Part shown: in pieces, positions 1 to 13,874 of the stretch
How the letters are laid out: every line of letters starts with the position of its first letter
How positions within the stretch are numbered: the first letter of the stretch is position 1
NCBI GenBank assembly: GCA_002898955.1
Contig: BEIP01000002.1
Span: 1 to 20,050 of the forward strand
Reading direction: 5' to 3'
DNA from: a bacterium HR39
GTDB lineage: Bacteria > Pseudomonadota > Alphaproteobacteria > Geminicoccales > Geminicoccaceae
Length of the DNA stretch: 20,050 nucleotides
Notes under the pieces: generated by a model
The model's database searches: none
The model's input: the letters and a program-made list of their open reading frames with translations, nothing else
What the model was told of the DNA's origin: nothing
Position numbers and translations under genes: made by a program

Positions 1-439
1 CGGCATCGGGGTGGTCGGCGCTGAGGTAGGCGATGCCCTGGACGGGCTTGGGCTCCTGGCGCTGGCGGGGGAGGTAGGGATCCAGGTTCACCCCGTTTCT
101 GCCCCCCACCTTGGTCACCAGGGCCAGCTTGAGGGCCACCTCCTCCACCCCCTCCAGGGAGTGAGGGGGGTGGGCCGTGGCCCCCTGGACGAAGCAGTTG
201 AGCAGGTTGCCGTGCTCCGTGCCCGCCCCGGCGAGGATCCGGCCCCCCGGGGAGAAGCGCTTGTTGGCCATCAGGGAGAAGAAGGCTTCCTCCCAGTAGG
301 CCCTTTTCTCGGGCTTCTCGGCCTTGGCGATCTCCCGGGCCACGCGGCGGAGGATGTCCTCCACCCGCTCCTCCCCCGGGAGGGCGTACTGGCGCCTGGC
401 CAGCGCCGTGGAAAAGCTGTCGAAGTGGGTCTCCTTCAT
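1..439 (-). CDS. nrdJ: Class II (adenosylcobalamin-dependent) ribonucleotide reductase, N-terminal part, cut by window edge
   Basis: The 146 visible residues match the N terminus of B12-dependent ribonucleoside reductases, which reduce ribonucleotides to deoxyribonucleotides in the cytoplasm. Visible signs are the early S-x4-RRQY segment, a W-x4-F-x2-LM segment near residues 49-57, the FSPGGRILAGAGT stretch (62-74) and the LLNCFV motif (79-84), whose Cys82 is the expected first partner of the redox-active cysteine pair. The usual glycine-rich GGGxG loop reads VGGRNGVN (111-118), a small variation. The ATG overlaps the TGA of the upstream ATPase gene as ATGA, and a GGAGGGAGG ribosome site lies just before it, so translation is probably coupled to the transfer operon. 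The radical-site cysteines and C terminus are beyond the left edge. I infer class II rather than class I from the motif style; this is fairly but not fully certain. Confidence 0.85.
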   Translation of the reverse strand, partial: MKETHFDSFSTALARRQYALPGEERVEDILRRVAREIAKAEKPEKRAYWEEAFFSLMANKRFSPGGRILAGAGTEHGNLLNCFVQGATAHPPHSLEGVEEVALKLALVTKVGGRNGVNLDPYLPRQRQEPKPVQGIAYLSADHPDA

Positions 440-1647
440 GCCTCCCTCCACTTTTGATAGGCCCTGAGCAGGTCCCAGAGGATGGGGGGTCTTTCCCCCG
501 CCAGGACCGAGACCATGAGGTCGAGGAATTCCCTCCTTTCCAAGCCCAGCTCGCTCGCCGCCTTTCCCAGGAGGGGATCCCGTTGCCGGTAAGCCTGGGC
601 GAGGAGGGCAGCCCCTTCGAGGAGGTCTTCCTCCCGTTTTCCGGCGGGTGGGAGGCGGGGATAGGCCTCCTCTCCCGGGCTCCACTTGCCGAGCTTTATC
701 CCTTCGGGGGGGAGTCCTTCTAAAAGGCGGTCCACGGCTTGGGGCAGGTCAGGGACGAGGAAGAGCTTTCCCTTGCCCCGCACCTCCACCGCGGCGGCGA
801 AGGCCGGCCTCGCTAGCCTTCGCCTAGCTCTGAGATCGGGGGAACCGAGAAGGGGTCCGTACCTGGGGTTTTCCAGTACGTCCAGGAGGTCGCCCCCGTG
901 GACGCTGGAGATGACCTGGATGCCCCTGCGGGCGGCGGACTCCACCTCTTCCACGTCATCGTTGTAGCCCACCTCGTCCAGGACCAGGACCAGGGGAGCG
1001 TGGTTGGCGATGACCCGCCTGATGATCTGGGCCTGCTCCTTTGGGTCCGGCACCTGGTGCCACCGGGCGGTGCCCAGGGCGGGGTGGGGAACCCTTCCGA
1101 GCCCCCCGATTTCGTTGGAGGTGTCGATGACGGAGAGGTGGGGCCCGATCTCCCGGCTGAGCAGGGCCACGATGTTGCGGAGGAGGGTGGTCTTTCCCGA
1201 CTCGGGAGCGCCCACGATGAGGACGCTGCCCCTGGAGGTCAGGACCAGCTCCTCGAGCTCCTTGGGGGCCACCTGGAGGAACCTGGCTATCCGGATGGTG
1301 AGCCCGATGATCTCCCGGGTCCTGGAGTAGATGACGGAGATGCGGTGGGCGGTCCCGTCCAGTCCAGCCCTGCCGTCCTCCTTTATCCCCGAGAGGCTGC
1401 TGACCACGTAGGCGATCTCGTCCTCCTCCACGAGGATGTCCGCGTACTCTACCACGTTGCCCCACCCCCCGTAGCTCACCACGAGGGGTCTTCCGAGGAG
1501 GAGGCTGATCTCCGAGACGCCCTCCAGGTCGCTCACGGTGTCGCGGATGCGTCCGGGAAGGATGTCCATGAGGGCTTGGTACCCCCGGGCTTCCTCCTCG
1601 AGGAAGGGGTTCACGGCGGTGATGAGACCGGTCATCTCCGATGCCAT
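436..1647 (-). CDS. SpoIIIAA/Ycf45-type (R3H-ATPase family) P-loop ATPase, candidate VirB11 substitute
   Basis: This 403-residue protein has the pattern of the SpoIIIAA/Ycf45 family of RecA-like ATPases, distant relatives of the VirB11/PilT secretion ATPases. The N-terminal part (30-130) carries the family's LGRP (51-54), DGRAGLDGTAHRIS (91-104) and GLTIRIAR (115-122) segments. Then come Walker A GAPESGKTT (146-154), VIDTSNEIGG (173-182), VPHPALG (186-192), Walker B LVLVLDEVG (219-227) and a SSVHGG turn (247-252). About 120 residues after the ATPase core match nothing I know. It has no signal peptide or membrane segment, so it is presumably cytoplasmic at the base of the secretion machine. 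ATG at 1647 is chosen because GGAG stands at the right distance; ATG at 1635 would make an ATGA overlap with the upstream stop but has no ribosome-site spacing. Family assignment is strong; the VirB11 role is inference from context. Confidence 0.85.
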   Translation of the reverse strand: MASEMTGLITAVNPFLEEEARGYQALMDILPGRIRDTVSDLEGVSEISLLLGRPLVVSYGGWGNVVEYADILVEEDEIAYVVSSLSGIKEDGRAGLDGTAHRISVIYSRTREIIGLTIRIARFLQVAPKELEELVLTSRGSVLIVGAPESGKTTLLRNIVALLSREIGPHLSVIDTSNEIGGLGRVPHPALGTARWHQVPDPKEQAQIIRRVIANHAPLVLVLDEVGYNDDVEEVESAARRGIQVISSVHGGDLLDVLENPRYGPLLGSPDLRARRRLARPAFAAAVEVRGKGKLFLVPDLPQAVDRLLEGLPPEGIKLGKWSPGEEAYPRLPPAGKREEDLLEGAALLAQAYRQRDPLLGKAASELGLERREFLDLMVSVLAGERPPILWDLLRAYQKWREA

Positions 1648-2210
1648 ACTTCTCCGTCAAAGTAGGCGCTTCCCTCCTTCTGGAGGAGCTGAAGGTCCCG
1701 GGCTACCAGGGGGGCGGGCAGCCCCGTGCGCCTGGCGATCTCAGCGATGCTTCCGGGAAGGGCCGAGAGGACGCTCTGGGGACCGGGGGCGGCGTTCTCC
1801 CCCCTGGGAGAGGACGGGGTTCTGCCCTGGTTCCTCCCCTCCTTGGCTAGGTCACCCAAGGCCTTGGCCACGATGAGGGTTCCCACGGGGACGAAGAGGC
1901 TCTGGGCGAAGGTCTCCCACACGGGGAGGTCTCCCGCCAGGGCCATGGCCCGGTAGTTGCCCAGCCAGACGAGCCCAAGGGCCACGTACGCTCCGTACGC
2001 GGCCCAGTAGCTCTTTCCGGGGAGGAGGTTGGCGGCCAGGGAGAGGAGGAAGGCCACCATTTCGAGGCTCGCCGCCAAGGCCCAGGAGAGGGGCGCGGGG
2101 AGGTCTCCCAGCGTGAGCCGGTACCAGGAGGCCAGGTGGGCGGTGGATACCGCGAGGGTGCTCAGGTAGGCGGCGAAGAGGGCGAAGGAGATCAGGCGCT
2201 CGGCCTTCAT
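1632..2210 (-). CDS. Four-helix membrane protein with a C-terminal winged-helix-like domain
   Basis: I do not recognise a named family. The 192-residue protein has four likely membrane segments (about 7-27, 41-63, 68-88 and 102-117), a charged, flexible Ser/Pro/Gly stretch (120-147), and a tail (148-190) that reads as a helix-turn-helix with wing: SIAEIARRTGLP (154-165), then VARDLQLLQKEG (169-180) and a short beta strand ending in VWHRR. This resembles winged-helix DNA-binding domains, placed here on the inner face of the membrane. The start at 2210 overlaps the stop of the transglycosylase gene as ATGA; the longer open frame upstream is antisense-like sequence over that gene. It overlaps the ATPase gene downstream by 16 nt. 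A role in holding DNA or plasmid sites at the membrane, or as a membrane-bound regulator, is only an inference. Confidence 0.75.
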   Translation of the reverse strand: MKAERLISFALFAAYLSTLAVSTAHLASWYRLTLGDLPAPLSWALAASLEMVAFLLSLAANLLPGKSYWAAYGAYVALGLVWLGNYRAMALAGDLPVWETFAQSLFVPVGTLIVAKALGDLAKEGRNQGRTPSSPRGENAAPGPQSVLSALPGSIAEIARRTGLPAPLVARDLQLLQKEGSAYFDGEVWHRR

Positions 2211-2680
2211 GGGGTCCTCCGCGGGGGCATGCGGCTCTTCAGGGCCTGGACCACGTAGACCACCCGGTAGACGTAGATCTGGGTGGTCCGAGGGGGTTGG
2301 TGGGCCCTTCCAGGGCCCGCGTTGTAGGCCGCCAGGGCCTTGTTCCAGTCCCCAAACCTCCTGTAGAGCCTTTGGAGGTAGAGCATGGAGGCGTAGAGGT
2401 TCCAGTCGGGGTCGTAGAGGTAGGAGGGAGGCACGCCGAGGCTTCGTGCCGTGGAGGGAAGCATCTGGCCCAGGCCGATCTCCCCCTTTGCCCCCACCGC
2501 TTGGGGGCAGTAGCGGGATTCGGTCCACACGAGGGCTACCGCGAGGTTGGGGGGTACGCCGAAGCGCTCCGCCCAGTAGAGGGTCTTGGCGTAGAGGTCC
2601 TGGGGGATGTACCCGCAGGCCCAGGCGGTAAGAGGGGAGGCCATCAGGAGGAGCAGGGAGGCGAGGAGTCCTCTAGGCAT
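2207..2680 (-). CDS. VirB1-like lytic transglycosylase (SLT domain)
   Basis: Cleaves peptidoglycan so that a secretion machine can cross the wall; periplasmic. The 157-residue protein has a signal peptide with a likely cut near residue 21 (AWA/CG; not a proper lipobox) and a single soluble lytic transglycosylase domain. The catalytic glutamate is Glu54 in the ES pair (54-55), followed by the GLGQMLPSTA motif (69-78) and AYNAGPGR (118-125), all standard for this family. Two cysteines (22 and 58) may form a disulfide. Length is close to the minimum for the domain, so there is no extra cell-wall binding module. It overlaps the small membrane protein upstream by 8 nt and the next gene by ATGA. 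In conjugation clusters this position is normally VirB1 or its equivalent. Confidence 0.92.
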   Translation of the reverse strand: MPRGLLASLLLLMASPLTAWACGYIPQDLYAKTLYWAERFGVPPNLAVALVWTESRYCPQAVGAKGEIGLGQMLPSTARSLGVPPSYLYDPDWNLYASMLYLQRLYRRFGDWNKALAAYNAGPGRAHQPPRTTQIYVYRVVYVVQALKSRMPPRRTP

Positions 2681-2828
2681 AGTCCCTTTCCCACATGAGG
2701 AGGAGGAGGTGGACGATGGCGGAGAGGAGGAGGATCTGGGCCCCCCGGTCTATGGAGAAGATGAAGATGGCGAGGAGGCCGTAGCCGTAGCCCGCGTACA
2801 CCAGGGCGCGGAAGAGCCGTTCTCTCAT
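2673..2828 (-). CDS. Small (51-residue) hydrophobic membrane protein
   Basis: A short gene inside the operon that fills the only gap between the PLD-like gene and the transglycosylase gene. It starts at ATG 2828 behind a GAGGTGAGG ribosome site, 7 nt after the preceding stop, and its TAG at 2673-2675 lies inside the transglycosylase start region (8 nt overlap). The protein begins MRERLFRALVYAG and has two hydrophobic segments (about 9-25 and 31-45) separated by a short IDRGAQ loop, ending in MWERDYA. The positive N terminus and negative C terminus suggest a hairpin with both ends in the cytoplasm. Size and operon position recall small T4SS membrane subunits (TrbD/VirB3-like), but a better VirB3 candidate lies next to VirB4, so the function is unknown. 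Confidence 0.7.
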   Translation of the reverse strand: MRERLFRALVYAGYGYGLLAIFIFSIDRGAQILLLSAIVHLLLLMWERDYA

Positions 2829-2835
2829 CCTCACC

Positions 2836-3366
2836 TCACGGAGCGAGCCCCAGACGCCTCAGCTCGGAGCGGAGCCGCGCCTCCTCCTGGAGGGTGCGCT
2901 TCACGAACTCTCCGAGCTGCGTGAAGGGATTGTAGGGCAGAACCTTCGCCCTCGAGGGCTTCGGCTGGTAGCGGTAGCTGGGAGCCCGCGCGAAGGCCGC
3001 TACGAACCGTCCGCGCCAGAGGTCCGGGTTCCCCTGGGGGTACACGAGCCTGCCGTCTACCATGGCCCCGTAGCCGTTTACCCGCGCCAGGCGGATGCTG
3101 GCTCCCACCAAGGACAGGACGCTCGTGTAGGCGTCCTTGGCCTCCGCCTCCTTCGGGGGGAGAAGGAGGTAGGCCCGCACCCCGCGCTTCACCACCGCCT
3201 CGTGGAGGGCCTTGGCCAGGGCCTCATGGGTAAGGCGCGGAGCGGCGAGGAGAACCTCGCTCCTGGCGGCGGCCACCGCCTCCACGATCTCGGCAGGCGG
3301 GTCCTGGGCCAAGGCGCCAGGGGCGAGGACCAGGCCCAGGGCGAGGAGGCTAAGGCCTTTCCTCAT
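2836..3366 (-). CDS. Secreted phospholipase-D-like protein with degenerate HKD motif
   Basis: The 176-residue protein has a signal peptide (1-20, cut after ALA) and then one PLD-like half-domain: EIVEAVAAARSEVLLAAP (26-43), an ALAKALHEAVVKRGV helix (49-63), a YLLLPP strand (66-71) and the region where PLD enzymes carry HxK(x4)D. Here that site reads NGYGAMVDG (97-105): the catalytic His and Lys are replaced by Asn97 and Tyr99 and only Asp104 remains. It is therefore probably not a nuclease or lipase but a binding or structural protein in the periplasm. The C-terminal 40 residues are charged and helical. The gene overlaps the VirB6-like gene upstream by 17 nt, has a GGAGGAAGGAG ribosome site, and is clearly part of the transfer operon. 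Fold assignment is from pattern only and is moderately sure. Confidence 0.7.
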   Translation of the reverse strand: MRKGLSLLALGLVLAPGALAQDPPAEIVEAVAAARSEVLLAAPRLTHEALAKALHEAVVKRGVRAYLLLPPKEAEAKDAYTSVLSLVGASIRLARVNGYGAMVDGRLVYPQGNPDLWRGRFVAAFARAPSYRYQPKPSRAKVLPYNPFTQLGEFVKRTLQEEARLRSELRRLGLAP

Positions 3367-4804
3367 CTCCTTCCTCCTTGGGAGGGGGAAGCTGGTTCCA
3401 CCCCTGGCCGCGCCTGGGGGGCGGGGGACCTGGGTCCTCCGCCACGAGGGGGGGCTTGGCCACGACGCGGGCGGTTTCGCCCTCCTTCAAGTGCCAGTAG
3501 TCCGTCATGGACTGGGGGTTGAGGGGTCGGGAGACCACGGGACGGCGGTCGGAGATGGTGTAGCTGTTGGCCACGGGGGCCTTGCGGGCCTGGTAGTCCG
3601 CGTAGGCGGTGCGGGCCGTCTGGTAGGCCACGCGGTTCAGGGCGTACAGGCCCACGGCGGTGCGTCCCGCCGCCGCGGCGGCGCTCTTTGCCGCGGATCC
3701 GGTGGCGAGGGCGGCCTGGGTGCTGGTCCTGGCGGCGGTCTTGCCGGTTACCGCTCCTCGCACGAGGCCCGCCATGTCGCCCACGAGCCCGGCGATGCCT
3801 CCTACGAACTGGGTGATGAAGCGGCTAGCGCCCAGGGTCACGTAGAAGGCCAGGATGACGCCGAAGACGAGGGAGAGCAGGAGGCGGACTATGGCCCAGA
3901 TGAGGGCGCCCACGTGCTTCAGTCCCTCCCCGATGTTCCACATGCTGATGTTTTCCAGGGCGCTCACGTGGTAGTTCCAGGCTTGGCCGAACTGCTCGGC
4001 GGGGATGCCGAAGGCGATGAGGGCGGCGGCTCCGAGGACGATGGGGGCCAGCAGGACCACGAAGGCACCGCCGATTATGGCGCGGTAGAGGGGTTGGAAG
4101 AACTGGGCGGTGACCCCGTGGCCGTTCATCACCAGAAAGGGGATGATGGCGGGTAGGAACATGAGGGCCACCAGCATGCCCACGCCCGCTGTCACCTGGA
4201 GCACGGCGAGGAGGAGGAGCAGGGGTATGAGGGCGATGGCGAAGATGTTTAGGTAGGCGGCGAACTTCCCCACGGACTCGGTGGCCCCTTTGGTCCCCGC
4301 CCCGGCCATGTCCACCACGGTGGTGTTGGTGATGCCCTTCTCCAGGGCCTTCTCTCCCACCTTGCGGGCGGCGTTCCCCATGACCCCCACGGTGGCTATG
4401 CCCATGGCCCCGGCGCCCACGGTGATCACGTCCGAGGCGGCCCGCGAGAGGGCCAGGTTGTACTCGAAGAGCCTGTCGGAGATGGTGATGCTGGTGTCCA
4501 CGGCCCCTATGAAGAAGCTGGCGGCGGCCTCTTGCAGGGCTGGAGCGGCGGCGAGGAGGGCTCCCGCGATGGCCCCGCGGATGGCGGTGGAGAGGAAGAT
4601 CTGGCCGCGGAGGCGGGCGGTTCCCTGGAGGAGGCGGATGCCCACCAAGCCCAGAAGGATGGCTCCTGCCAGCGTCTGGAGGGCGTCGAAGGCGCCCAGG
4701 TTCTTCAGGTGGAACTGGATCCGGGCGAGGGTGTTGCTCACGTCGGGGAGAACCCCCCAGTCGGTAAGGAGCTCGATGACTCCCTGTGGGGCTTGTCCGT
4801 TCAC
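3350..4804 (-). CDS. VirB6/TrbL-like polytopic inner-membrane protein
   Basis: At 484 residues this is probably the channel-forming subunit of the secretion system in the inner membrane. Hydrophobic segments are visible around residues 40-60, 74-97, 125-143, a long double-spanning stretch 185-230 (LIPLLLLLAVLQ and MFLPAIIPFLVM), 242-270 and 300-330. Before the long stretch there is a glycine/alanine-rich soluble loop (130-180). The last 130 residues are hydrophilic, first Ala-rich (a helical stretch near 345-380) and then Pro-rich. This arrangement is that of TrbL/VirB6 proteins. The start is GTG at 4804 with GAGGAGGAG in front, 10 nt after the VirB5-like stop. No motif settles the family, but position next to VirB5-like and VirB4 genes supports it well. 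Confidence 0.8.
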   Translation of the reverse strand: MNGQAPQGVIELLTDWGVLPDVSNTLARIQFHLKNLGAFDALQTLAGAILLGLVGIRLLQGTARLRGQIFLSTAIRGAIAGALLAAAPALQEAAASFFIGAVDTSITISDRLFEYNLALSRAASDVITVGAGAMGIATVGVMGNAARKVGEKALEKGITNTTVVDMAGAGTKGATESVGKFAAYLNIFAIALIPLLLLLAVLQVTAGVGMLVALMFLPAIIPFLVMNGHGVTAQFFQPLYRAIIGGAFVVLLAPIVLGAAALIAFGIPAEQFGQAWNYHVSALENISMWNIGEGLKHVGALIWAIVRLLLSLVFGVILAFYVTLGASRFITQFVGGIAGLVGDMAGLVRGAVTGKTAARTSTQAALATGSAAKSAAAAAGRTAVGLYALNRVAYQTARTAYADYQARKAPVANSYTISDRRPVVSRPLNPQSMTDYWHLKEGETARVVAKPPLVAEDPGPPPPRRGQGWNQLPPPKEEGDEERP

Positions 4805-4814
4805 GGTCTCCTCC

Positions 4815-6056
4815 TCAGTTTTGCGCCTCGAGGCACTTCTCCGGCTCCCGGTACCAGTTGCAGCGCGTGGGCTTGAGGACGCTCTTCCACAGCTCGCGCA
4901 CGCCCCTGGCGGTTCCCACGGCGGCGTCCAGCTGACCCATGACGTAGCCCACCTCGTTGGCCGCCTCCTGAGCGGTGGCCGCCACCTGCCCTCCTAGGAT
5001 GTCGGCCAGGCGCTCCGTCTGGTAAGCGAGCTGCTGGTTGGTGTAGACGTTCTGCTGGGCGAGCTCGGCCAGGGCCTGGTAGAGGAGGCTCTGCATGACC
5101 ACGTTCCCCTGGGTGAGCTGGGCGAGCCCTTTGACGGCGATCTGGACGGCGGCCCTGGTGGAGGTGGCGTTCTGGGCTTCCTCCACCAGGGCCTTGGTCT
5201 TCTCCTCCGTCTCCTTGATGGTGTTCAGGATGTCCTCGGTCTTTTCGGAAATACGCTTGGCGGCCTGGGCCGCGGCGAGGGTGGGGGTCTTGGCCTTGGT
5301 GGCGCTCACCGCCCGGTCCAGATGCCGCACGGCCTGGAGGGCGCTGGCTTGGGTGGCGGTGTATATCCTCTTGGCCTCGCTGAGGTGTGAGGCCAGAATC
5401 TTGGCCTCTTGGGTGAGCTGGTCCTGCTCCTGGAATATCTGCCTTATGAGGCTTTCGGCTTCGGGGGTCCCTGGGGTGACGAGGGAGAGCTGGTCCTGAA
5501 GTTGGCTGATCCTCTTCCTGCGCTCCTCGATCCTTCCCCAAGTCCCCGTGAGTCGGTCTTTGATGTCCTCCGTGGCCTTCTCCAAGTCCGTGAAGTAGTC
5601 CTTGTAGGCGCTTTCGATGGTCTTCAGGGCCTCCTTTTCGGCATCGGCAGGCGACACGTCGTTTTCATAGGCGTCCTGGTAGATCTCTCCGGGCCCGCGG
5701 TGCCCTTCGGGGTTGGGGAAGTCGGGCAGGGCGACGCCCACCTCCCGTGCCATGGAGCCGACGACTCCCGTGTCGGTGGCGGCGGAGATCAGGGGGTTGT
5801 CGAGGTCTTTGAAGACCTTTCCCATGGTGAGGTTGAAGCGGTTGAGGTTGGTGTTGAACTCCTTGAAGAGGCCGAGGAGCGCGCAGAGGTTGAGCTTCCA
5901 GTCCCCGAGGCCTACCTCTATGTCCCCGAACTGGCAGAGCAGGGAGATGATGCCTCCCAGGTCTTGAGGAGAAGGGGATGGAGGCGGGCTCGAGACCTGG
6001 GGAGCCGCCAGGGTGAGGGTGAAGGACGCGGTAAGGGCCACCGTCCACTTCTTCAT
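4815..6056 (-). CDS. VirB5/TrbJ-like secreted coiled-coil protein
   Basis: The 413-residue protein has a signal peptide (about 1-18), a short Pro/Ser linker, and then a mostly helical body. Residues 140-315 form heptad-rich coiled coil with many Glu, Lys, Gln and Ala; a further amphipathic part (316-385) contains repeated Gln/Ala helices. Cysteines occur as two pairs, Cys41/Cys58 near the N terminus and Cys399/Cys408 at the C terminus, which suggests two disulfides outside the cytoplasm. VirB5/TrbJ proteins are exported helical bundles at the pilus tip or base, and they sit between VirB4 and VirB6, as here. The start overlaps the VirB4 stop as ATGA behind AGGAGGTAGG, so the two are coupled. 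Longer than typical VirB5 (about 220-250 residues), so the assignment is by context. Confidence 0.72.
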   Translation of the reverse strand: MKKWTVALTASFTLTLAAPQVSSPPPSPSPQDLGGIISLLCQFGDIEVGLGDWKLNLCALLGLFKEFNTNLNRFNLTMGKVFKDLDNPLISAATDTGVVGSMAREVGVALPDFPNPEGHRGPGEIYQDAYENDVSPADAEKEALKTIESAYKDYFTDLEKATEDIKDRLTGTWGRIEERRKRISQLQDQLSLVTPGTPEAESLIRQIFQEQDQLTQEAKILASHLSEAKRIYTATQASALQAVRHLDRAVSATKAKTPTLAAAQAAKRISEKTEDILNTIKETEEKTKALVEEAQNATSTRAAVQIAVKGLAQLTQGNVVMQSLLYQALAELAQQNVYTNQQLAYQTERLADILGGQVAATAQEAANEVGYVMGQLDAAVGTARGVRELWKSVLKPTRCNWYREPEKCLEAQN

Positions 6057-8737
6057 TGCCTACCTCCTGCTAGCTTGTACACCGCTTTGAGTACGCTTCC
6101 CTCCCTCTTCGCCGCGGCCTCGCGGCGCTCCCTCTCCAGGGGGTGGGTGGTGAAGAGCCAGTAGCGCACGGGGTCGGCAATGATGCGCACTATGCCTCCC
6201 TCGCCGCCCTCCCCCTGGCGCAGCCAGACCTGGGCCTCGCTGTAGTGGCGCAGGGACTTGGTGAGGCTCGAGTTGAGGCTGGCGAAGCTCACCGGGCAGC
6301 CCACCACCTCGGCGATTTCCTCCGGGGTGTTCTGCGTGCGGAAGAGGAAGAAGGTGGAGACGTTGGCGGCCACGGCCCTGGCGTGCTCCGAGAGGAAGTC
6401 CCGGAGGTTTTGGCTCACCGCCCAGGTGGAGATGTTGAGGGTCCTGCCCCTGCGGAAGAGGTCGTAGACCGCGGTGGCGCTGGTGGGGTTTTGCAGGAGG
6501 TACCAGGCCTCCTCGAGGATGGCGATGCGCCTGGGGTAAGGGCTTCCGTTAAGGAAGCGCCAGAGGAGCTGGACCACGTTGAGCATGGCCACGGGAAAGA
6601 AGTGGGGAAGGCCCTCCACTTCTTGCACCACGATGTAAAGGAAGCGGGTCTTGGGGTGGATGTTCACGTTGGAGGGGCCATCGAAGATCTTCCCAAGGGG
6701 AGTCTTCCTGGACCAGCGGTCCAGGCGGGCGGCGAGGCTCGCCGCCACGGCCTTCTCCTCGGGGGTGGGAGCGCGGCCCGTGACCTGGTTCAGGTTGTTC
6801 AGGCTCGTTATGAGGTCGGAGATGGTGGCCCCCTGGTACCGCCTCTCCCACTCCCCGTCGGGGGCCTTGTGTTGGGTGGTCCTCCTGCGGTAGGTCTGGA
6901 GGATGGCGCTCCGGAGGATGGCCTCCTCGATGGCGGGATCGTGGTCCCCCGTGGGGGGAAGCATCTGCCGAAAGAGGGCCTCGAGCTGGAGGAGCTTGAC
7001 CTCATCGGGCTCGTGCTGGTCTGGAGCCAGGTCGAAGGGGTTGATGACCGTGGGGCTCTCGGGCCCGAACTTCACCATGGCGGCGAGTCCCTCCTCCCGC
7101 ATGGCCTCGTAGAGCCCCTTGTAGCTCCACTCGTGGCGGTCTATGGCCACCGCCACCACGTCGTCGCTCTTCAGGGCCTCGGTGAGGCGGTGCTGGGCGA
7201 GGTAGCTCTTGCCGGATCCCGACTCCCCCACGATGAGGGCGTTGTAGTTGGGGAGCTTGGGGTCCCACGGGTCGAGGGCCACGGGCTGGTTGCCCCGGTT
7301 GAGGTAGACCTCCCTGGGCCGCTCCGCCTCGTAGGTCCAGTACCCGTTGGTGGGCCAGTAGTGGGCGGCCTGGGTCTCCGGGTACAGGCGGGGCCTGGAG
7401 AGGGCGTGCCCGGAGAAGGGCAGGCCCTCGAGGAAGTGTCGGAGGACCCCCCGGTGGAGGCGCATGAAGGGGTGCCCCTCCAGGGCGGTCATGGCGGTCT
7501 GGGTCTCTAGTATCCGCTCCTGGAGCCTCCTTGGGTCCGAATCGACCAGAAGGAGGAGGGCGGAGACGAGGTAGAGCCCCTCCCCCGAACGCCTTATGTA
7601 GCGGATGTACTCGGAGACCTCCCTCGCGCCCTCCTCGGCCCCGATGTCGGGGACATCGGTCTGTCCGGCGGTGACGTAGTAGTCCCGGAAGCGGTTGCGG
7701 AGGATGCCCTCGGCCTTGGCGTTGGGCACCCTGGTAATGTCCAGGACAAACCAGGAGGGGAGGCCTGCCGCCTCGAGGACCCCGTTCAGCATGCCGAACC
7801 AGGTCTCGTCGGGCACGTCCACTAGCTTGAAGAAGACGAGTTCGCTCTCTCCGAGCTTGAGCCTGTCAAGATGCCTGTTGTCCAGGGTGGAGCGCACCAG
7901 CTTGCTCCTCAGGGTGGCTCGCCTGGAAGCCTCTCCCAGGCCGCCCGGCAGTCCCTTCCGCGGCATGTGGAGGGGCGTGGGGACGTAGCCCTTGGGGGGC
8001 GGAAGGTCGGGGTTCAGGTACTCGAAGATGACGCTGAAGAGCTCCCCGTCCTCTAAGGGGCGGTGGGGAAGGCCCGCCCTTCCCAGGGCCAGGGAGACCT
8101 GGGAGCGGTAGGCCTCCAGCTCCTTCAGGAACTCCTCGTACTCCTCCACGGTGTAGCCCACGTAGGGCTCCCGCTTGGTGCCGGGAAAGAGGTCTTGGAG
8201 GAAGGCGAGGAAGGGGCGCTTGGTGCTGTAGCCTAGGCGGGGAGTCCCCACGGGCAGGGAGATGTAGTAGCGGTGGGCGTAGATCTGCCCCGCCTTCTGC
8301 CAGCGGCGGAGCTCTTCCAGCTGCTGCCTTCCTATTTCTCTCAGGAAGGGCTCCTCGGCGGTGATGCCCTCGGCGTAGCGGGCGAGCACGCCGTCTATCT
8401 CCAGGATTTTGGCCTGTACCAGGAGGCGGAGGCGCTGGTTATCCCGCAGGGTCCGCAGGAGCCCCTTGAGCCCCCGGTGGAAGAGGGTGAGGGCCTCCTC
8501 CCCCATGGTTTCGCGGTTGGGGAGGAAGACTTCGAAGGCGATCTCGGCCCGGCTGTCCTTGAGGTAGACCGCTTTCCCCTGGATCTCCCAGTAGGGGAGG
8601 AGCTCCACCAGGGAGCCCGTGTCCTTGTCTGCGGCCTTGACCTTTCCCATGAGGGGGTCCACGCGGTCATCGAGGGGATGGGCGGGGGCGGGTTCCAACC
8701 GCCCCGGAGCTTTGGACTCAGGCCGCTGCCTACGCAT
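6053..8737 (-). CDS. virB4: VirB4/TrbE/TraC-type conjugation ATPase
   Basis: The central energising ATPase of the T4SS, 894 residues and so close to the usual family length of about 800-900. The N-terminal half (1-480) is the CagE/TrbE/VirB-type domain that contacts the membrane subunits. The C-terminal ATPase holds Walker A GESGSGKS (504-511), a helix with VAVAIDRHEWSYKG after it, Walker B AILEEAWYLL (about residues 738-747), and the RTLNISTWAVSQNL segment, the place of the conserved arginine and Gln of VirB4 proteins. No signal peptide or clear membrane segment is present. The ATG lies within the last codons of the VirB3-like gene (8 nt overlap) and has only a weak ribosome site, so translation is probably coupled. 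An in-frame ATG at residue 30 is a possible alternative start. Family assignment is firm. Confidence 0.95.
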   Translation of the reverse strand: MRRQRPESKAPGRLEPAPAHPLDDRVDPLMGKVKAADKDTGSLVELLPYWEIQGKAVYLKDSRAEIAFEVFLPNRETMGEEALTLFHRGLKGLLRTLRDNQRLRLLVQAKILEIDGVLARYAEGITAEEPFLREIGRQQLEELRRWQKAGQIYAHRYYISLPVGTPRLGYSTKRPFLAFLQDLFPGTKREPYVGYTVEEYEEFLKELEAYRSQVSLALGRAGLPHRPLEDGELFSVIFEYLNPDLPPPKGYVPTPLHMPRKGLPGGLGEASRRATLRSKLVRSTLDNRHLDRLKLGESELVFFKLVDVPDETWFGMLNGVLEAAGLPSWFVLDITRVPNAKAEGILRNRFRDYYVTAGQTDVPDIGAEEGAREVSEYIRYIRRSGEGLYLVSALLLLVDSDPRRLQERILETQTAMTALEGHPFMRLHRGVLRHFLEGLPFSGHALSRPRLYPETQAAHYWPTNGYWTYEAERPREVYLNRGNQPVALDPWDPKLPNYNALIVGESGSGKSYLAQHRLTEALKSDDVVAVAIDRHEWSYKGLYEAMREEGLAAMVKFGPESPTVINPFDLAPDQHEPDEVKLLQLEALFRQMLPPTGDHDPAIEEAILRSAILQTYRRRTTQHKAPDGEWERRYQGATISDLITSLNNLNQVTGRAPTPEEKAVAASLAARLDRWSRKTPLGKIFDGPSNVNIHPKTRFLYIVVQEVEGLPHFFPVAMLNVVQLLWRFLNGSPYPRRIAILEEAWYLLQNPTSATAVYDLFRRGRTLNISTWAVSQNLRDFLSEHARAVAANVSTFFLFRTQNTPEEIAEVVGCPVSFASLNSSLTKSLRHYSEAQVWLRQGEGGEGGIVRIIADPVRYWLFTTHPLERERREAAAKREGSVLKAVYKLAGGRQ

Positions 8738-9086
8738 AGGTCCGTTTACGCTCGGCCTTGGGAAGCTCCTTCTGTGCCCTGTAGACCAGGGGCGCGTTCA
8801 CCGGGTCAGGGCCGTGGTCGTAGAAGTAGCGTTCCTCGAAGACCCAGCGGGCGAAGTCCGTGTGTGTCCCGTGGGGGAAGACGGCGAGGAAGGCCCGCTT
8901 GCCCAGGTATCCCCCTGCGGCGGAGAGGGCCATGAGGAAGAGGCTCGTGCCCAGGCTGAGACCAAGGGTGCTGGTCAGAAAGCCCACGAAGGCCACGAGG
9001 AGGCCGATGAGGATGAGGTCGGCCCACGTGATGTCGAAGAAGAGGTATGAGGGCTGGTCCAGTTTGAAGGTGCGCATGCTGAGCAC
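8730..9086 (-). CDS. VirB3/TraL-like small inner-membrane protein
   Basis: A 118-residue protein with an N-terminal amphipathic piece (FKLDQPSYLFFDITWAD), two membrane segments (about 24-44 and 47-67) forming a hairpin, and a soluble C-terminal half with aromatic and charged residues (ARWVFEERYFYDHGPDP). Short two-helix proteins encoded directly before VirB4 are VirB3, TraL, TrbD or PrgI; they hold VirB4 at the membrane. The start is GTG 9086, with AAGGAGGAAGG in front at good spacing; the in-frame ATG at 9077 is too far from it. It overlaps VirB4 by 8 nt. Sequence identity to any one of the named families is too low for me to choose between them. Confidence 0.75.
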   Translation of the reverse strand: MLSMRTFKLDQPSYLFFDITWADLILIGLLVAFVGFLTSTLGLSLGTSLFLMALSAAGGYLGKRAFLAVFPHGTHTDFARWVFEERYFYDHGPDPVNAPLVYRAQKELPKAERKRTYA

Positions 9087-9113
9087 GGCCCTTCCTCCTT
9101 TCTTTCAGACCTC

Positions 9114-9647
9114 TCAGGACGAGGATGCCGAGCAGGCCTGCTTCGGGTTTCCGAAGATGGAGATGAAGGCCAGGACGATGCCCACGCCCGTGGCGGCGAT
9201 GACCCCGCCCCACACGAAAACGCCCCAAACTCTGACCTGTAGGGCTTTCAGTATAAAGCCGAGGACCACGGCGATGCCCGCGGCGAGGAAGACCACGGGG
9301 CCCGCCGTGTTGTAGATGTAGCACATGGCCTCTTTAATAGGGTCGATGGCCTTACCTAGGGCGCTCTTGACGTCGGTTCCCCCGAAGTCGACACCGCTAC
9401 CCTGCTGTCCCGAGTTCGGGGCAGCCAGGCCCAGGTTCGCCGCTCCCGTGAGGGCCAGGGTGGCCAGGGCTCCCGCCTTGGCCCCCCGGAGGAAGTTCTG
9501 GGCCGGGGTGAGGTGTGGGAGGTCTCCGAAGTGCTCCCCGAAGTCCCGCCGCACCTCCAGGGCCTGGGACTGCGTCCAGGCGTAGGCCCTGACCGCGAGC
9601 TCCTTCACGCCGACAAGCCCCTGGGTTATGTGGCGAAGTGATTTCAT
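9114..9647 (-). CDS. VirB2/TrbC-like pilin precursor
   Basis: First gene of the leftward transfer operon. The 177-residue product has a long basic leader (1-55), a hydrophobic piece with a signal-peptidase-like site (ALATLALTGAANLGLAA, cut near residue 76), a short Gly/Ser/Asp-rich region, and two membrane segments, 115-134 and 141-165, with a short basic loop KALQVR between them. Long leader plus two-helix mature part of about 100 residues is the VirB2/TrbC pilin design. Cys109 and Cys172 could form a disulfide. The start at ATG 9647 has CTGAGGAGGTGG in front. The longer open frame upstream lies antisense over the VirB10-like gene and is not real. Identification rests on architecture and position, as pilins have few conserved residues. 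Confidence 0.78.
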   Translation of the reverse strand: MKSLRHITQGLVGVKELAVRAYAWTQSQALEVRRDFGEHFGDLPHLTPAQNFLRGAKAGALATLALTGAANLGLAAPNSGQQGSGVDFGGTDVKSALGKAIDPIKEAMCYIYNTAGPVVFLAAGIAVVLGFILKALQVRVWGVFVWGGVIAATGVGIVLAFISIFGNPKQACSASSS

Positions 9648-9665
9648 TACCACCTCCTCAGGGGG

Positions 9666-9671
9666 TATTAT
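9666..9671 (+). promoter_or_regulatory. -10 box of leaderless promoter for the VirB10-like gene
   Basis: TATTAT stands exactly 6 nt before the ATG at 9678, with no ribosome site between, so the mRNA should begin at or next to the start codon. The -35 region is poor (TTTCAT or TTCATT at 9642-9648), which suggests a weak or activated promoter. It shares five of six bases of position with the pilin operon's -10 box on the other strand, so the two cannot be occupied at once. Confidence 0.6.
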
Positions 9672-9695
9672 AGAGTCATGGCGAACGGAAGGCAA
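9667..9695 (-). promoter_or_regulatory. Sigma-A-type promoter of the pilin/VirB4 operon
   Basis: Reading the minus strand, TTGCCT (9690-9695), a 17-bp spacer and a perfect TATAAT (9667-9672) precede the pilin gene. The expected start site leaves a leader of about a dozen bases, just enough for the GAGGAGG ribosome site. The -35 box lies inside the divergent VirB10-like coding region and the -10 box overlaps that gene's own -10 box. It is the only clear promoter upstream of the ten-gene leftward run. Confidence 0.75.
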
Positions 9696-11123
9696 GGTGC
9701 CCCCACGGAGGGCGGCGGCGACCTCGAGGCCCTCCATCGGGAAATCGCCGAGGCCTGGGGTAGGGAAGTCCCGGACCGCAAGGATCCCGCCTACGCGGAG
9801 ATGACGGCCTGGCTCATGCAGAACCGCCCCGACCTCCTCTCCCGGCTCTACGCCTACGAGGAGCTTCCCGAGGAGGGGAGGCTCCAGTACGAGGCCAGGG
9901 AGGCCACCAGGGAGCTCAGGCGGAAGCTCGCCTTCGAGGAGGACGAGCGGGGGAGGCCTTTCCTTTCCAAGGGAAAGGTGGGGGGGCTTCTCCAGGTGGG
10001 GGCCGCGGTCCTGGTGTTCGGGGTGGTGGGTTGGTTCCTCCTGGTTCCGAGGCTCTTTGGGGATCGGGGGGGGGACCAGCCTCCGCCGCCTCAACCCCCA
10101 CCCCAGGTGGAGCAGGCCAGCCAAGAGGCTCCTCCGGAGGAAGCCAATCCCTCTCCCGTGGCCCCTCCCGCGGCTCCTCCTGCTTCTCAGAAGGTGGAGG
10201 CTCCGAGCCCGCCCCCGGTGCCTGAGCTTCCTCAGGCTCCTCCACCACCGCCCCCGCCCCAGCTCACGGGGGTGGTGGTGGCTTCTCCCGTGGTCGCGGG
10301 GGAGGCGAGGACCGCCGAGCCCTCGTCTCCCGTGGGGAGCGCCTTCTTCGTGGGGGCGCAGGTTCCCGGAGGGGGGGGCGGCGCAGCGGGAGGGTTATTT
10401 CGGGAGGGGGCGGTGTCCCCCGGGAGCGCGGTCTTCGGGGAGGCGGCCTCTTCCCCGGGGGCCGCGGTGGCGGCGAGGGAGGAGGCGGTTACTCCTCCTC
10501 CTGAGCGGGGGCCCGAGGTCCGGGACCGGGGCGTGGAGGAGGCCCTTTCCGGCATGGAGCGGGCCGTGGTCCAGGTCTCGGCTCCGTCCTCTCCGCATTC
10601 CTCCTCTGAGGGGCCTTCGTGTCCCCCTGGGGGCTTCCTGAGGGGGGTCCTCGAGACCAAGGTGGCGGTGGTTCAGGGGCAGGAGGGGCCCGTGGCGGTG
10701 CGCGCCGGGGAGAAGGTCTTCCTGGGTAAGGTCTTCCTTGGGTCCTCGGGCAGGGTAGAAGGCCGTCTGGACCGGGTGGTGGTGGGAGGACAGGTGAGCT
10801 CCGCCAACGCCTACCTCGCGGAGAAGGACACGAGGGCGCCGGGGATCCCTCCGAGGGTGGTGGACCTGGCTCCCGCCCTGGCCCAGGATCTCCTTCGCGG
10901 GGCGGCCAACGGGGTGGTGGCCTATGTGGAAGGGCTGCGCTCCGCCACGAAGGTGGTGGTGGGGTCCGGGGGGCAGGTGGTGGTGGAACGCGGATCCCCT
11001 GACCTCCTCTCCAGCCTGGTCGGGGACGTGGCCAAGGTCCTGGCGCTTCCCCAAGGCTCAACTAGCGTGGTGCGGGTGTACGAGGTGGACCGGGGCACGG
11101 AGGTGGAGGTGGGCTGTCTTTAG
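9678..11123 (+). CDS. VirB10/TrbI-like scaffold protein, divergent
   Basis: The 481-residue protein has a cytoplasmic N-terminal part (1-100) rich in Glu and Arg, one membrane helix (about 102-124, VGGLLQVGAAVLVFGVVGWFLL begins it), a Pro/Ala-rich periplasmic linker (134-194), a Gly/Ala/Ser low-complexity part (195-300) and a beta-rich C-terminal domain (316-481). That domain contains GFLRGVLETKVAV (319-331), VAVRAGEKVFLGKVFLG (339-355) and VVVGGQVSSANAYL, in the order of the TrbI/VirB10 barrel domain, though strongly diverged. Cys315 and Cys480 bracket this domain. VirB10 spans from the inner membrane to the outer-membrane complex. It is the only T4SS gene on the plus strand and has its own leaderless promoter. 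Topology strongly supports the call; sequence similarity is weak. Confidence 0.75.
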   Translation: MANGRQGAPTEGGGDLEALHREIAEAWGREVPDRKDPAYAEMTAWLMQNRPDLLSRLYAYEELPEEGRLQYEAREATRELRRKLAFEEDERGRPFLSKGKVGGLLQVGAAVLVFGVVGWFLLVPRLFGDRGGDQPPPPQPPPQVEQASQEAPPEEANPSPVAPPAAPPASQKVEAPSPPPVPELPQAPPPPPPPQLTGVVVASPVVAGEARTAEPSSPVGSAFFVGAQVPGGGGGAAGGLFREGAVSPGSAVFGEAASSPGAAVAAREEAVTPPPERGPEVRDRGVEEALSGMERAVVQVSAPSSPHSSSEGPSCPPGGFLRGVLETKVAVVQGQEGPVAVRAGEKVFLGKVFLGSSGRVEGRLDRVVVGGQVSSANAYLAEKDTRAPGIPPRVVDLAPALAQDLLRGAANGVVAYVEGLRSATKVVVGSGGQVVVERGSPDLLSSLVGDVAKVLALPQGSTSVVRVYEVDRGTEVEVGCL

Positions 11124-11158
11124 GGCATGGTGGGGGCCGGTAGCCCTTTGCGCTTCCT

Positions 11159-12295
11159 CTACCTCTGCCGGGGCTCCCCTACCACGTCCGGCACGGGGTA
11201 GCCCTCCACCAGGGCGAGCCACTTGGTGTTGACCCTGACTCCCGAGAGCTGCGTGGGGAGGTAGATGGGCAGCGGTTGCTTGGTATCCGCCGGCCCCCTG
11301 CAGGTGATCCAGTAAACGGGCACCCGGGGAGAGGTCTCGGCAAAGGGGACGGCGTAGAGGTAGAGGTGCGGGGCCACGCCATAGATCTCGTACTCCGCCC
11401 TGGGGGCCGTGAAGGGGTCTCCCTTGGGCACCGGACCGCCTCCGGCTCCGCTCCAGTAGAGGGGCTGGTCGTGGACCCCACCCCGCTGGCTCAGGGTCTC
11501 CTTGAGCTTTTCCGCGGGCACCACGCCCGGGGGGTCGAAGCTTCCCCTTGGGTTTAGGGGCCTCCCCAGCTCCCTGGTCCTCTCCGCCGGAGAGGTGCCT
11601 GGGGCGGCCTGTCTGGTGTAGATGGGGGCCTTCCCGCCCAGGACTTGCTCCACCTTTTTCGTGAGAGCTCCCCAGTCCGGGCTCCTGGGGCCTTCTACCG
11701 GGGTGATGAAGGCTCCCCGTTCGGGGCGCGTGTAGTCCTCCCAGTAGATGCCCTTGGGGGCGTAGCGCTTTACGGCGCCCTCCACCCGGTCCAGGTACCT
11801 CCGGTAGTAGACGGAGAAGGCGTGGGCCTTGGCCTCGGCCAGCCTCCGGTTCATGTCCGCCCAGTCCAGCTTGTAGCCGGGGCAGGGCTCTTCCTCGTAC
11901 CACACGGGGGTGCTGGGCAAGTTGCCGTCGCAGTAGTCTTCCGGGCCCACCTGTTCTGGAATGGTCCGGTCCGGGGCCTCGGGGTTGGCCCCCTCCCAGA
12001 TGTCGAGGAGCCCGTCCTTTTGGGGCCCTCCGGAGCACTGCCTGCCGTAGATGGAGGCCATGATGCGGAAGTAGAGCTGGGCGTCGAAGTAGTTCCAGGC
12101 CTCCGAGACTGCCCGCTCCAGTTGCATGGCGTTTCTCCTCGGGATGATGGGGGCCACCAGGGCCTTTCCCGTCTTGCCCTGGACCCGTTCGTACTCCACC
12201 CCCTCTTCGAAGATGGCGGAGAGCATGTTGAGGGAGCTCGCGAGGGCCAGGAGGGAAAGGGCAGGGAGGGAGAGGAGGAGGAGCCTTCCCTTCAC
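11159..12295 (-). CDS. Exported four-cysteine protein of unknown function in the transfer region
   Basis: I do not recognise this 378-residue protein. It begins with a typical signal peptide (MKGRLLLLSLPALSLLALAS). After it comes a helical part (30-180, including MQLERAVSEAWNYFDAQLYF), then a Pro/Gly/Tyr-rich part (185-378) with many short beta strands. Four cysteines (87, 122, 138 and 332) and many tyrosines and tryptophans suggest a disulfide-stabilised periplasmic or surface protein. The GTG start overlaps the stop of the VirB9-like gene as GTGA with GAGGGAAGG in front, so it is the third gene of that operon. It faces the VirB10-like gene with a 35-bp gap. Context suggests an outer component of the secretion complex or a surface contact protein; the sequence itself does not prove either. 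Confidence 0.8.
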   Translation of the reverse strand: MKGRLLLLSLPALSLLALASSLNMLSAIFEEGVEYERVQGKTGKALVAPIIPRRNAMQLERAVSEAWNYFDAQLYFRIMASIYGRQCSGGPQKDGLLDIWEGANPEAPDRTIPEQVGPEDYCDGNLPSTPVWYEEEPCPGYKLDWADMNRRLAEAKAHAFSVYYRRYLDRVEGAVKRYAPKGIYWEDYTRPERGAFITPVEGPRSPDWGALTKKVEQVLGGKAPIYTRQAAPGTSPAERTRELGRPLNPRGSFDPPGVVPAEKLKETLSQRGGVHDQPLYWSGAGGGPVPKGDPFTAPRAEYEIYGVAPHLYLYAVPFAETSPRVPVYWITCRGPADTKQPLPIYLPTQLSGVRVNTKWLALVEGYPVPDVVGEPRQR

Positions 12296-13041
12296 GGCTG
12301 CCTTCCCTCGAGGGCCAGGGTGAGGCTCCCCGCCCTGCCCACCACCTTGAGGCGTAGCTCCTCGTTCCCCACCTTGAGGGGGATGGAAAGGGTGGCCTCC
12401 TTCTGGCCAGGGACGAGGAACTGGAGAGTCACCCCCTTGAGGGGCATGAGAACCGCGTCTCTCCCTACCACGCGGAAGGGGATGGGCTTTCCTTCCCGGG
12501 TGGTGGCCTCGGCCTGGCTCACCGGAACGGACACGGGGTAGATGGTGGCGGACCGCACCTCCAGGTTCACCTTTAGGCCGTCCGCGGTGAGCTCGCTGCT
12601 GGCGGATACGGCCAGCCCCCTGTCCACCAGGGTGGTGCTCGCGGGGGAGGTCCTTGGCCCCGCGGGTCCCGGCTCCGGGAGGTCTGGCTGCTCCGCCCGG
12701 ATGACGTAGCGCCTCGGGCCCCCCTGCTCCACCACCCGCACCCGGAAGAGCATGGTGTACCCCTTGGCCCGGAGGATGAGGTCCGTTTCTCCGCTCTTGG
12801 CCTTGGGGAAGAGGACCGCCAGGTTGCCGCTGGCCTTCAGCTCCACCAGGTTGGCGTTGCCGAGGAACTGCTCCTCCACGGGGGCGAACAGCTCCAGGAG
12901 GGTGGTGTAGCCGGGGGAGAGGAGGACGGTGGCGGGGTTCACTTCCAGGCTGGGGGCGTAGAGGAAGGTGGTGGCGCTCGGCCTGTCCTGGGCCAAGGCT
13001 ACGAGGGCGAGGAGGGGCAGGACTTTCAGAAGAATCCTCAT
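12292..13041 (-). CDS. VirB9/TrbG-like exported protein (second of a tandem pair)
   Basis: A 249-residue protein with a signal peptide (1-18). Residues 32-107 form a beta-rich domain: a hydrophobic strand around VLLSPGYTTLLELFAP (39-54), ALFP-type strand NLAVLFPKAKSGETDLIL (73-90) and then YTMLFRVRVVEQ. This is the order of the VirB9/TrbG N-terminal domain (membrane-potential-like strand, P-x-x-x-GxTDL turn, then a strand carrying aromatic residues). A Pro/Gly linker (118-136) leads to a second beta domain (140-240). Together with VirB10 such a protein builds the outer-membrane core complex. The ATG overlaps the upstream stop as ATGA. The C-terminal domain is not clearly that of VirB9, so the call is moderate. 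Confidence 0.65.
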   Translation of the reverse strand: MRILLKVLPLLALVALAQDRPSATTFLYAPSLEVNPATVLLSPGYTTLLELFAPVEEQFLGNANLVELKASGNLAVLFPKAKSGETDLILRAKGYTMLFRVRVVEQGGPRRYVIRAEQPDLPEPGPAGPRTSPASTTLVDRGLAVSASSELTADGLKVNLEVRSATIYPVSVPVSQAEATTREGKPIPFRVVGRDAVLMPLKGVTLQFLVPGQKEATLSIPLKVGNEELRLKVVGRAGSLTLALEGRQP

Positions 13042-13838
13042 CGGCCGACCTCCTTGACGGCGGGAATCCACTCGAGGAGGAAAGCCACGCTGGGGTTGGC
13101 CCCGGTGAGCTTGGCGTCCATGGCGGTGATGGGCCATTCCACCTCGAGCCGGGTGGGGGCAGGGGTCAGGTCCTCCACGGGCACTTCGAGCCGCGCCGTG
13201 GCCGTACCTCCCGGGGGAAGCCAGCCCGGCCTGCCCGAGGAGAAGAAGGACTGGGCCGTCACCTGCCGTGGGGTCCGGTCCCCCAGGCGGACCTTGGGGG
13301 AGGCGAGCACCAGGGGAAGGTCGCCCCGGTTCAAGGCGGTGAGGTCGATGAGGAGGAGGTTCCTCTCCTTGTCGAAGGAGACCACTCCCCGCAAGACGGC
13401 CCCCAGGACCTCCCGGCTAGCGGCGGCCTTGGGCTGGCTGGGGAGTCCCTGGGTTCCTGGGGGTCCTCCAGGTACGGCCCTGGAAGCGGGAGCGGGAGCG
13501 GGCTCTTTGGGGAGCAGGCGGAGGCGGTACTCGGTGGCCCTTCCCGGGACGAGCTCGAAGCGGACCCTTTCCTCCCCGATCCGCGCCTCTAGAGAGGCGC
13601 CCTTTTCTACCCTTCCCTGGAGGCACAAGCGGTCTCCCTCTTTGGCGATCTCTCCCTCGAGGCCCCCCAGGGCGTACTCCTTGACGGGAGCGGGGAACTC
13701 CACGCAGGTGGGCTCCTTCTCCGACACCTCGAGGGGCACGGGAGCCTGTCCGGGGGCGATGGGGAGGACTGCCAGCTCCTGGGCGGAGGCCAGGAGGAGG
13801 AAGCCTTCCAGGAGGAGGATGGCACGCAAAGTTTTCAT
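13038..13838 (-). CDS. Exported two-domain beta protein, VirB9/TrbG-like (first of a tandem pair)
   Basis: A 266-residue protein with a signal peptide (1-19, cut after ASA). Residues 22-110 form a beta domain with CVEFPAPVKEYALGG (45-59), DRLCLQGRV (69-77), then ARIGEERVRFELV and YRLRLLP; Cys45 and Cys72 could pair. A Pro/Ala linker (110-135) leads to a second beta sandwich (140-245) with GVVSFDKERNLLLIDLTALN in its first hairpin and WLPPGGTATARLEVPV near its end. The layout (signal, beta domain, Pro linker, beta domain) is the same as in the next gene, and the N domain again follows VirB9/TrbG order. It is transcribed from a leaderless promoter just upstream and coupled to the following gene by ATGA. 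An outer-membrane core subunit is the likely role, by context. Confidence 0.62.
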   Translation of the reverse strand: MKTLRAILLLEGFLLLASAQELAVLPIAPGQAPVPLEVSEKEPTCVEFPAPVKEYALGGLEGEIAKEGDRLCLQGRVEKGASLEARIGEERVRFELVPGRATEYRLRLLPKEPAPAPASRAVPGGPPGTQGLPSQPKAAASREVLGAVLRGVVSFDKERNLLLIDLTALNRGDLPLVLASPKVRLGDRTPRQVTAQSFFSSGRPGWLPPGGTATARLEVPVEDLTPAPTRLEVEWPITAMDAKLTGANPSVAFLLEWIPAVKEVGR

Positions 13839-13844
13839 AAGGAG

Positions 13845-13874
13845 ATGATAAGCACTTCGCCCTTCGCGAGGCAA
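13845..13874 (-). promoter_or_regulatory. Leaderless promoter of the VirB9-like operon
   Basis: On the minus strand TTGCCT (13869-13874), an 18-bp spacer, TATCAT (13845-13850), then 6 nt and the ATG at 13838. The bases before the ATG (CTCCTT) are the reverse of a ribosome site, so initiation must be leaderless. The -35 box is identical to that of the pilin operon. Confidence 0.7.

Follow-up and report, generated by a model that had tools for sequence, protein, structure and literature searches.

What is the cluster of genes that fills positions 436-13838 of BEIP01000002.1, a 20,050-base contig with open ends that is filed in a metagenome bin, and what would its products do? This whole contig, C2 of the bin, is the window of our analysis. 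The cluster consists of 14 genes, one of them a 53-amino-acid open reading frame (ORF), and it is a genuine, rather divergent type IV secretion system (T4SS) of conjugation type, belonging to a kind that extends across the Deinococcota; the variant is new, the kind already known. It is highly probable that the cluster forms the mating-pair-formation (MPF) half of a conjugative T4SS carried by a Thermus plasmid or plasmid-like element. The original prediction of a divergent T4SS with several subunits beyond simple family calls, and with extra genes, is borne out by the features below, given in gene order within each unit.

9667-9695, minus strand: promoter-like site of the VirB2 operon, TTGCCT-17-TATAAT.
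9114-9647, minus strand: VirB2-like pilin with two hydrophobic segments and its ATG at 9647 (similarity at E 0.0013, and position).
8730-9086, minus strand: VirB3-like membrane protein (relative on the O. profundus plasmid at 7e-9, position, a hydrophobic segment).
6053-8737, minus strand: VirB4/TraC ATPase (Pfam P-loop_TraG; NCBIfam TraC-F-type; O. profundus plasmid relative).
4815-6056, minus strand: VirB5-like coiled-coil protein (O. profundus and two Thermus plasmids have relatives in this position).
3350-4804, minus strand: VirB6/TrbL-like polytopic membrane protein.
2836-3366, minus strand: PLD-like protein, apparently exported (PLDc_2 E 0.0017, below cut-off).
2673-2834, minus strand: small membrane-like protein of 53 amino acids (ORF).
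2207-2680, minus strand: VirB1-type lytic transglycosylase (SLT) with a signal-like hydrophobic N terminus (Pfam SLT 1.9e-23).
1632-2210, minus strand: membrane protein with two hydrophobic segments and a C-terminal winged helix (HTH_IclR 7e-4, below cut-off).
436-1647, minus strand: SpoIIIAA/Ycf45-type P-loop ATPase in the VirB11 position (Pfam Spore_III_AA).
9678-11123, plus strand: VirB10, with a hydrophobic segment at residues 105-123, a proline-rich linker and a C-terminal core-complex domain (predicted fold).
13845-13874, minus strand: promoter-like site of the VirB9 unit (promoter scan).
13038-13838, minus strand: first gene of the VirB9 unit, with a hydrophobic N terminus, a putative machine part (distant relative in genome G103).
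12292-13041, minus strand: VirB9, its first beta domain of VirB9 fold and its second non-specific (predicted fold).
11159-12295, minus strand: o378, with a hydrophobic N terminus, conserved with the system (relatives in other loci).

The layout is that of two minus-strand units, one of ten genes (436-9647) and one of three (11159-13838), with VirB10 alone on the plus strand and divergent from its neighbours. The predicted stop/start overlaps are real, joining VirB3 to VirB4 (8730-8737), VirB4 to the VirB5-like gene (6053-6056), the VirB6-like to the PLD-like gene (3350-3366), the transglycosylase to the winged-helix membrane protein (2207-2210), the latter to the ATPase (1632-1647), and VirB9 to o378 (12292-12295). 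Three sigma-70-like promoters are found in the window, with 0.8 expected from shuffled sequence, and two of them directly precede VirB2 (9695-9667) and the VirB9 operon (13874-13845), consistent with this division into units. The gene set exceeds chance, since its order is repeated in independent genomes.

The identity of the core subunits comes from several kinds of evidence. Profile searches go part of the way: Pfam recognizes VirB4 and the transglycosylase but yields no T4SS match for VirB9, VirB10 or the VirB6-like protein, and it assigns the ATPase to Spore_III_AA. VirB4 belongs to its family through P-loop_TraG (7e-14, above cut-off); it is 39% identical to the O. profundus plasmid protein and matches the NCBIfam models TraC-F-type (143 bits) and VirB4_CagE (66 bits), both below their curated cut-offs. 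For the VirB9/VirB10 pair, structure prediction supplied what Pfam missed, the best PDB matches of both models being T4SS core proteins; on these predicted models the VirB9 fold of the N-terminal domain of VirB9 and the core-complex fold of the C-terminal domain of VirB10 are established. Unrelated beta-sandwich proteins also match the VirB9 model in Foldseek from rank 7 on (2.5e-5), in VIA its second domain matches nothing but such unrelated beta-sandwich folds, and searching PDB sequences with alignments of VirB10 and VirB9 returned no convincing match (TrwF, E 0.075). VirB2 resembles the O. profundus plasmid protein at E 0.0013 only, and the proteins at the same place in two Thermus plasmids are annotated TrbC/VirB2. 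The VirB5-like protein matches no specific family in Pfam and NCBIfam scans. The VirB6-like designation reflects position, five hydrophobic segments and similarity at 1e-27 to the protein that precedes VirD4 in G103; Pfam gave no T4SS family match among 11 such sequences, and single-sequence comparison with L009-L013 gave none.

The system was also expected to be nearly complete. Most core parts are present (VirB2, VirB3, VirB4, VirB5-like, VirB6-like, VirB9, VirB10, a VirB1-type transglycosylase and a secretion-type ATPase), but VirD4 is lacking, neither VirB8 nor VirB7 is recognizable, and by family the ATPase falls outside VirB11. The VirB8 result refers to Pfam and NCBIfam models run on the window genes that were scanned, with no search for a VirB8 fold, and a diverged VirB8 may be present. 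In the machine that we propose, VirB2 would form the pilus, and the outer-membrane core would consist of VirB9 and VirB10; the inner-membrane motor would comprise VirB3, VirB4, the VirB6-like protein and the SpoIIIAA/Ycf45-type ATPase, and the transglycosylase would open the cell wall; VirD4 and a DNA-nicking protein would be provided from elsewhere on the same replicon. DNA would be the cargo, and the VirB5-like and VirB6-like proteins may play the roles that their names imply.

A gene-neighborhood search with VirB4 finds the gene set largely in the same order in Thermus, Meiothermus, Calidithermus, Oceanithermus and Deinococcus, to which this kind of T4SS is common and in which many loci are on plasmids. 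The profile scan behind this comparison covered the window and 39 loci (L016, L017 and L024 omitted as copies or pieces); its family profiles were seeded partly by position (VirB2, VirB3, VirB6 and VirB10 of some plasmids), and those seeds match by construction. By tblastn, VirB4 finds 1,111 records among 72,556 plasmids, the twelve best covered all being of Deinococcota and the first twelve coming from Oceanithermus, nine Thermus, Allomeiothermus and Deinococcus aetherius. Scanning the genome contigs yielded 64 loci, of which the first eleven belong to Thermus, Calidithermus, Meiothermus, one member each of the Trueperaceae and Armatimonadetes, and a Deinococcales metagenome-assembled genome (MAG), and 25 of 111 Deinococci genomes carry a VirB4 of this type (E up to 1e-20). 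The system had been described as a thermophile lineage, a description that must be given up because Deinococcus plasmids bear the same system. The nearest VirB4, 48% identical, comes from G103; its 140-kb contig there further encodes relatives of the Fur-like, PilT, o95 and SLH proteins, their genes ordered as in the window.

Accounts of gene transfer in Thermus usually center on competence and the TdtA/HerA route. A classical T4SS in that share of Deinococci genomes suggests a second, often plasmid-borne route, and on the tentative reading of a separate machine class given below, Thermus would have classical conjugation beside unconventional transfer. A viral origin of the cluster was considered and dropped: no VirB4 relative occurs among 19 pattern matches in viral contigs, and the phage collection gave two weak matches only.

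Among the relatives, the closest comparison is with the Thermaceae plasmids pOCEPR01 (O. profundus), pTHTHE1601 (T. thermophilus), pTA69 (T. aquaticus) and pMESIL02 (A. silvanus), which have the core subunits in largely the order of the window, a SpoIIIAA-type ATPase and a PLD-like protein in all four, and SLT in three. Unlike the window, they carry VirD4 between the VirB6 and PLD-like genes and a Replic_Relax-type gene near VirB10, and their VirB4 proteins are only 25-39% identical to that of the window. Loci of this kind are already present in public plasmids, with some parts named by NCBI (TraC family, T4SS conjugative DNA transfer), and the MOB-suite typing in PLSDB labels five of the plasmids looked at MPF_T, namely these four and pDEIPR02; pOCEPR01 is typed conjugative, MOBC. 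On the other side, five Deinococcus plasmids with the cluster or parts of it receive no MPF label, and the window VirB4 joins neither R388 (MPF_T) nor F (MPF_F) in our tree.

That tree has 33 hand-chosen rows, 18 from the Deinococcota set (one of them from an Armatimonadetes MAG) and 15 others; the 18 fall on one side of a branch with support 100/99, leaving outside it the VirB4 of R388, two TraC proteins and 12 other rows. R388, the only MPF_T row, groups with the two TraC proteins at support 89/79. Another tree, of the relatives, omitted 11 of 40 loci as duplicates or fragments.

Could this be an ordinary MPF_T system with fast-evolving parts? The five MPF_T labels speak for it, as do homologues of VirB9, VirB10, VirB3 and VirB4 and the weak T2SSE matches of seven of ten ATPases; the window shares VirB2, VirB3, VirB4, VirB9, VirB10 and the transglycosylase with the VirB-type system of R388. 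We nevertheless think it unlikely, given the position of R388 with TraC outside the Deinococcota clade (with the single MPF_T row and support noted above), the lack of a VirB8 match, a best NCBIfam VirB4 model of F type, and a SpoIIIAA-type ATPase in the place of VirB11. The likeness to MPF_F is likewise partial: the VirB9 and VirB10 models also match F-plasmid core complex chains, which we take to be TraK and TraB, but no TraH, TraN, TraU or TraW family match occurs in the genes scanned and the window VirB4 lies outside the F branch. Tentatively, and with slightly less than even confidence, we propose that the Deinococcota possess a conjugation machine class of their own, distinct from every known MPF type, with a SpoIIIAA/Ycf45-type ATPase that would stand in for VirB11; if so, the motors of conjugation and of the sporulation feeding-tube apparatus would be directly linked in evolution.

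The family of this ATPase is clear from Pfam, in which Spore_III_AA scores 55 bits (cut-off 27) and T2SSE, the family of VirB11, 18 bits (cut-off 24.9). The NCBIfam spore_III_AA model matches at 5e-20, below its curated cut-off, and no VirB11/TrbB model is listed at E<=1e-3. Spore_III_AA is matched by all ten aligned ATPases, the window's included, and T2SSE more weakly by the seven mentioned. In single-sequence comparison (E-values set for 1,000 sequences) the window ATPase finds a cyanobacterial R3H protein at 4e-43, clostridial SpoIIIAA at 4e-15, the window's own PilT at 6e-5 and R388 VirB11 at 0.55, a contrast that is weaker for the ATPase of Deinococcus AJ005 (0.012 to R388 VirB11 versus 7e-5 to SpoIIIAA). 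This comparison was made instead of using the PilT matches of an iterated profile, which had absorbed the window's PilT. Among the 72,556 plasmid records, 24 hold relatives by tblastn, 22 of them from Deinococcota. A tree with SpoIIIAA, R3H, VirB11 and PilT references places the cyanobacterial R3H protein beside L022 and R388 VirB11 beside L137/L138 on an open fork; with this fork and its long branches, it supports no claim of a single origin or of a sister group. The gene shares its sequence family with SpoIIIAA/Ycf45 (R3H) ATPases but sits inside a T4SS operon rather than a sporulation operon, and from that place it appears to do the job of VirB11, which makes the kinship of sporulation and conjugation motors testable.

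Where does the contig come from? The bin comprises 1.99 Mb in 396 contigs and is 74% complete. Its RpoB fragment matches 7ye1 best (1002 bits), which we take to be the Caulobacter RNA polymerase, followed by E. coli (816 bits) and 1iw7, presumably Thermus (497 bits); the bin is thus an alphaproteobacterium. The tetranucleotide profile of the window correlates at 0.92-0.93 with four Thermus loci and at 0.89 with a fifth, whereas with 18 other contigs sampled from the bin it correlates at 0.28-0.53 in 17 and at 0.89 in one, contig C8. In the 12 window genes counted, 17-48% of the codons for arginine are AGG; a rougher tally, made over long ORFs, puts the AGG share at 1-4% in seven of eight bin contigs, 19% in C8 and 12-18% in five Thermus loci. 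With a profile so like Thermus and unlike the rest of the bin, the window very probably comes from Thermus and was mis-binned, and the same applies to C8. The idea of a Thermus-like genome therefore fits the contig but not the genome in which it is filed. That the contig truly belongs to the alphaproteobacterium, as a plasmid acquired horizontally, would agree with its binning and with a stated bin contamination of 1.4%; the tetranucleotide correlations, the AGG usage unlike seven of eight bin contigs, and the lack of VirB4 in three same-genus genomes make this extremely improbable, and the RpoB, tetranucleotide and codon evidence led us to drop the binned organism as host.

At its left end the window holds one further gene.

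2-439, minus strand: start of a ribonucleotide reductase gene (Pfam Ribonuc_red_lgN 1.7e-15; sequence).

C8 begins with a later reductase part (Pfam barrel domain), the window's being the first (Pfam all-alpha domain), and both match the single reductase of pOCEPR01; Thermus genomes also have such reductases. C8 bears ParB, SSB, NYN and UvrD-type genes, and relatives of its ParB, SSB, NYN, macro156 and o237 proteins are on the 140-kb G103 contig. Window and C8 are likely to be parts of one replicon. The reductase ATG at 439 overlaps the T4SS ATPase stop codon, which gives the reductase the look of the operon's final gene; its counterpart on pOCEPR01 is located elsewhere on the plasmid, and the 137 kb read of the G103 contig revealed no reductase. 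The residues before the reductase fragment of C8 (L087, 1-60) resemble an intein end (VVVHNC, presumably an intein-end pattern).

Several findings weigh against a conjugative element. VirD4 is absent from the window and the bin at E<=0.01; a Replic_Relax relative is absent from both, other relaxase families not having been searched and the contig ends being open; and nearly all relatives hold both genes in the cluster. MOB-suite rates 21 of the 24 plasmids bearing the ATPase as non-mobilizable, some relatives are on chromosome-size contigs (2.4-3.2 Mb) rather than plasmids, and NCBI names the ATPase of some Thermus plasmids as T2SS/T4P/T4SS family. The VirD4 gap is neat: VirD4 lies between the VirB6 and PLD-like genes in 22 of 25 loci having both matches (eight loci omitted as duplicates or fragments, some of those counted being near-copies), and is missing from that interval in the window and in L144, while in L139 it follows VirB6 and the PLD-like gene is elsewhere. 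VirD4 occurs in ten of the 11 plasmid records searched, in two of them away from the operon; the exception is D. gobiensis P3, where the ATPase, VirB9 and the PLD-like protein have relatives but VirD4 does not, and where the 30 kb read contain no VirB4.

One explanation is that VirD4 and the Replic_Relax-type protein were lost and the channel kept, leaving a T4SS that is now non-conjugative and serves protein secretion or DNA release or uptake. It accords with the lack of both genes in the window, VirD4 from the interval described, when the nearest relatives, L147 and L009, have both, and with their lack in the bin. Absence from the bin, though, carries little weight, since the bin is not that of the plasmid's host. 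Two complete Deinococcus plasmids, moreover, share the window's arrangement (VirB6, a 164-176-amino-acid protein, a short protein, ATPase) and have VirD4 about 11 kb off in one case and about 36 kb in the other, adjoining a relative of o378; the PLD profile has no match on either. In G064, VirD4 is about 70 kb from the VirD4-less cluster on its contig C8, where VirB6 contains a run of N, and in G105 it is on another contig. We dropped VirD4 loss on the evidence of the two complete plasmids, and because of these four cases the gap is better read as relocation; a non-conjugative T4SS is very unlikely. Under our preferred reading of a conjugative system, VirD4 would lie outside the window contig. 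In L144 (G105; 1505-3700) the D4-less relative neighbors a replication initiator gene (Pfam RPA) and a series of iteron-like repeats seen by eye, and pMESIL02 (L012) bears two VirD4-type coupling proteins (21403-23631 and 26010-28655).

The Replic_Relax-type protein, usually beside VirB10 in the relatives, matches Pfam in three of four tested (two above cut-off) and has P-D, E-x-D and K residues that are invariant across ten rows. No relative was found in G000, G105 or G132, nor in the 30 kb read of two Deinococcus plasmids. Restriction-enzyme-like relaxases have been described, and with the MOBC label of pOCEPR01 they prompt our guess that this protein may be the relaxase.

The accessory genes also recur. 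The conserved PLD-like protein is an unusual feature of the system: PLDc_2 is matched by six of 11 sequences at E<=0.1, and HxK(x4)D, which we take to be the PLD catalytic motif, by none of the 11, so that a PLD phosphodiesterase is not indicated by sequence. Small membrane-like proteins occupy the same place between the PLD-like and SLT genes in L009 and L010, and the winged-helix membrane protein has relatives in two Thermus plasmids and on G103. Relatives of o378 occur in O. profundus, G103, Meiothermus/Calidithermus and other loci; its identification with a known T4SS protein was dropped, there being no such family in library scans. The sole distant relative of the 13038-13838 protein, on G103, lies about 15 kb from the T4SS there.

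Beyond the cluster, positions 13910-16494 encode a Fur-like regulator, a further protein, a PilT-family ATPase and a short protein; on the G103 contig the relatives of the Fur-like, PilT and short genes are about 35 kb from its T4SS. An SLH-domain protein (16989-18845, minus strand) has its own promoter-like site, and a relative stands beside the ATPase in two Thermus plasmid T4SS clusters. The last gene (18886-20022, minus strand) encodes an AAA ATPase with N-terminal hydrophobic segments, kin to CDC48/FtsH, which also matches an anti-phage ATPase model, below cut-off.

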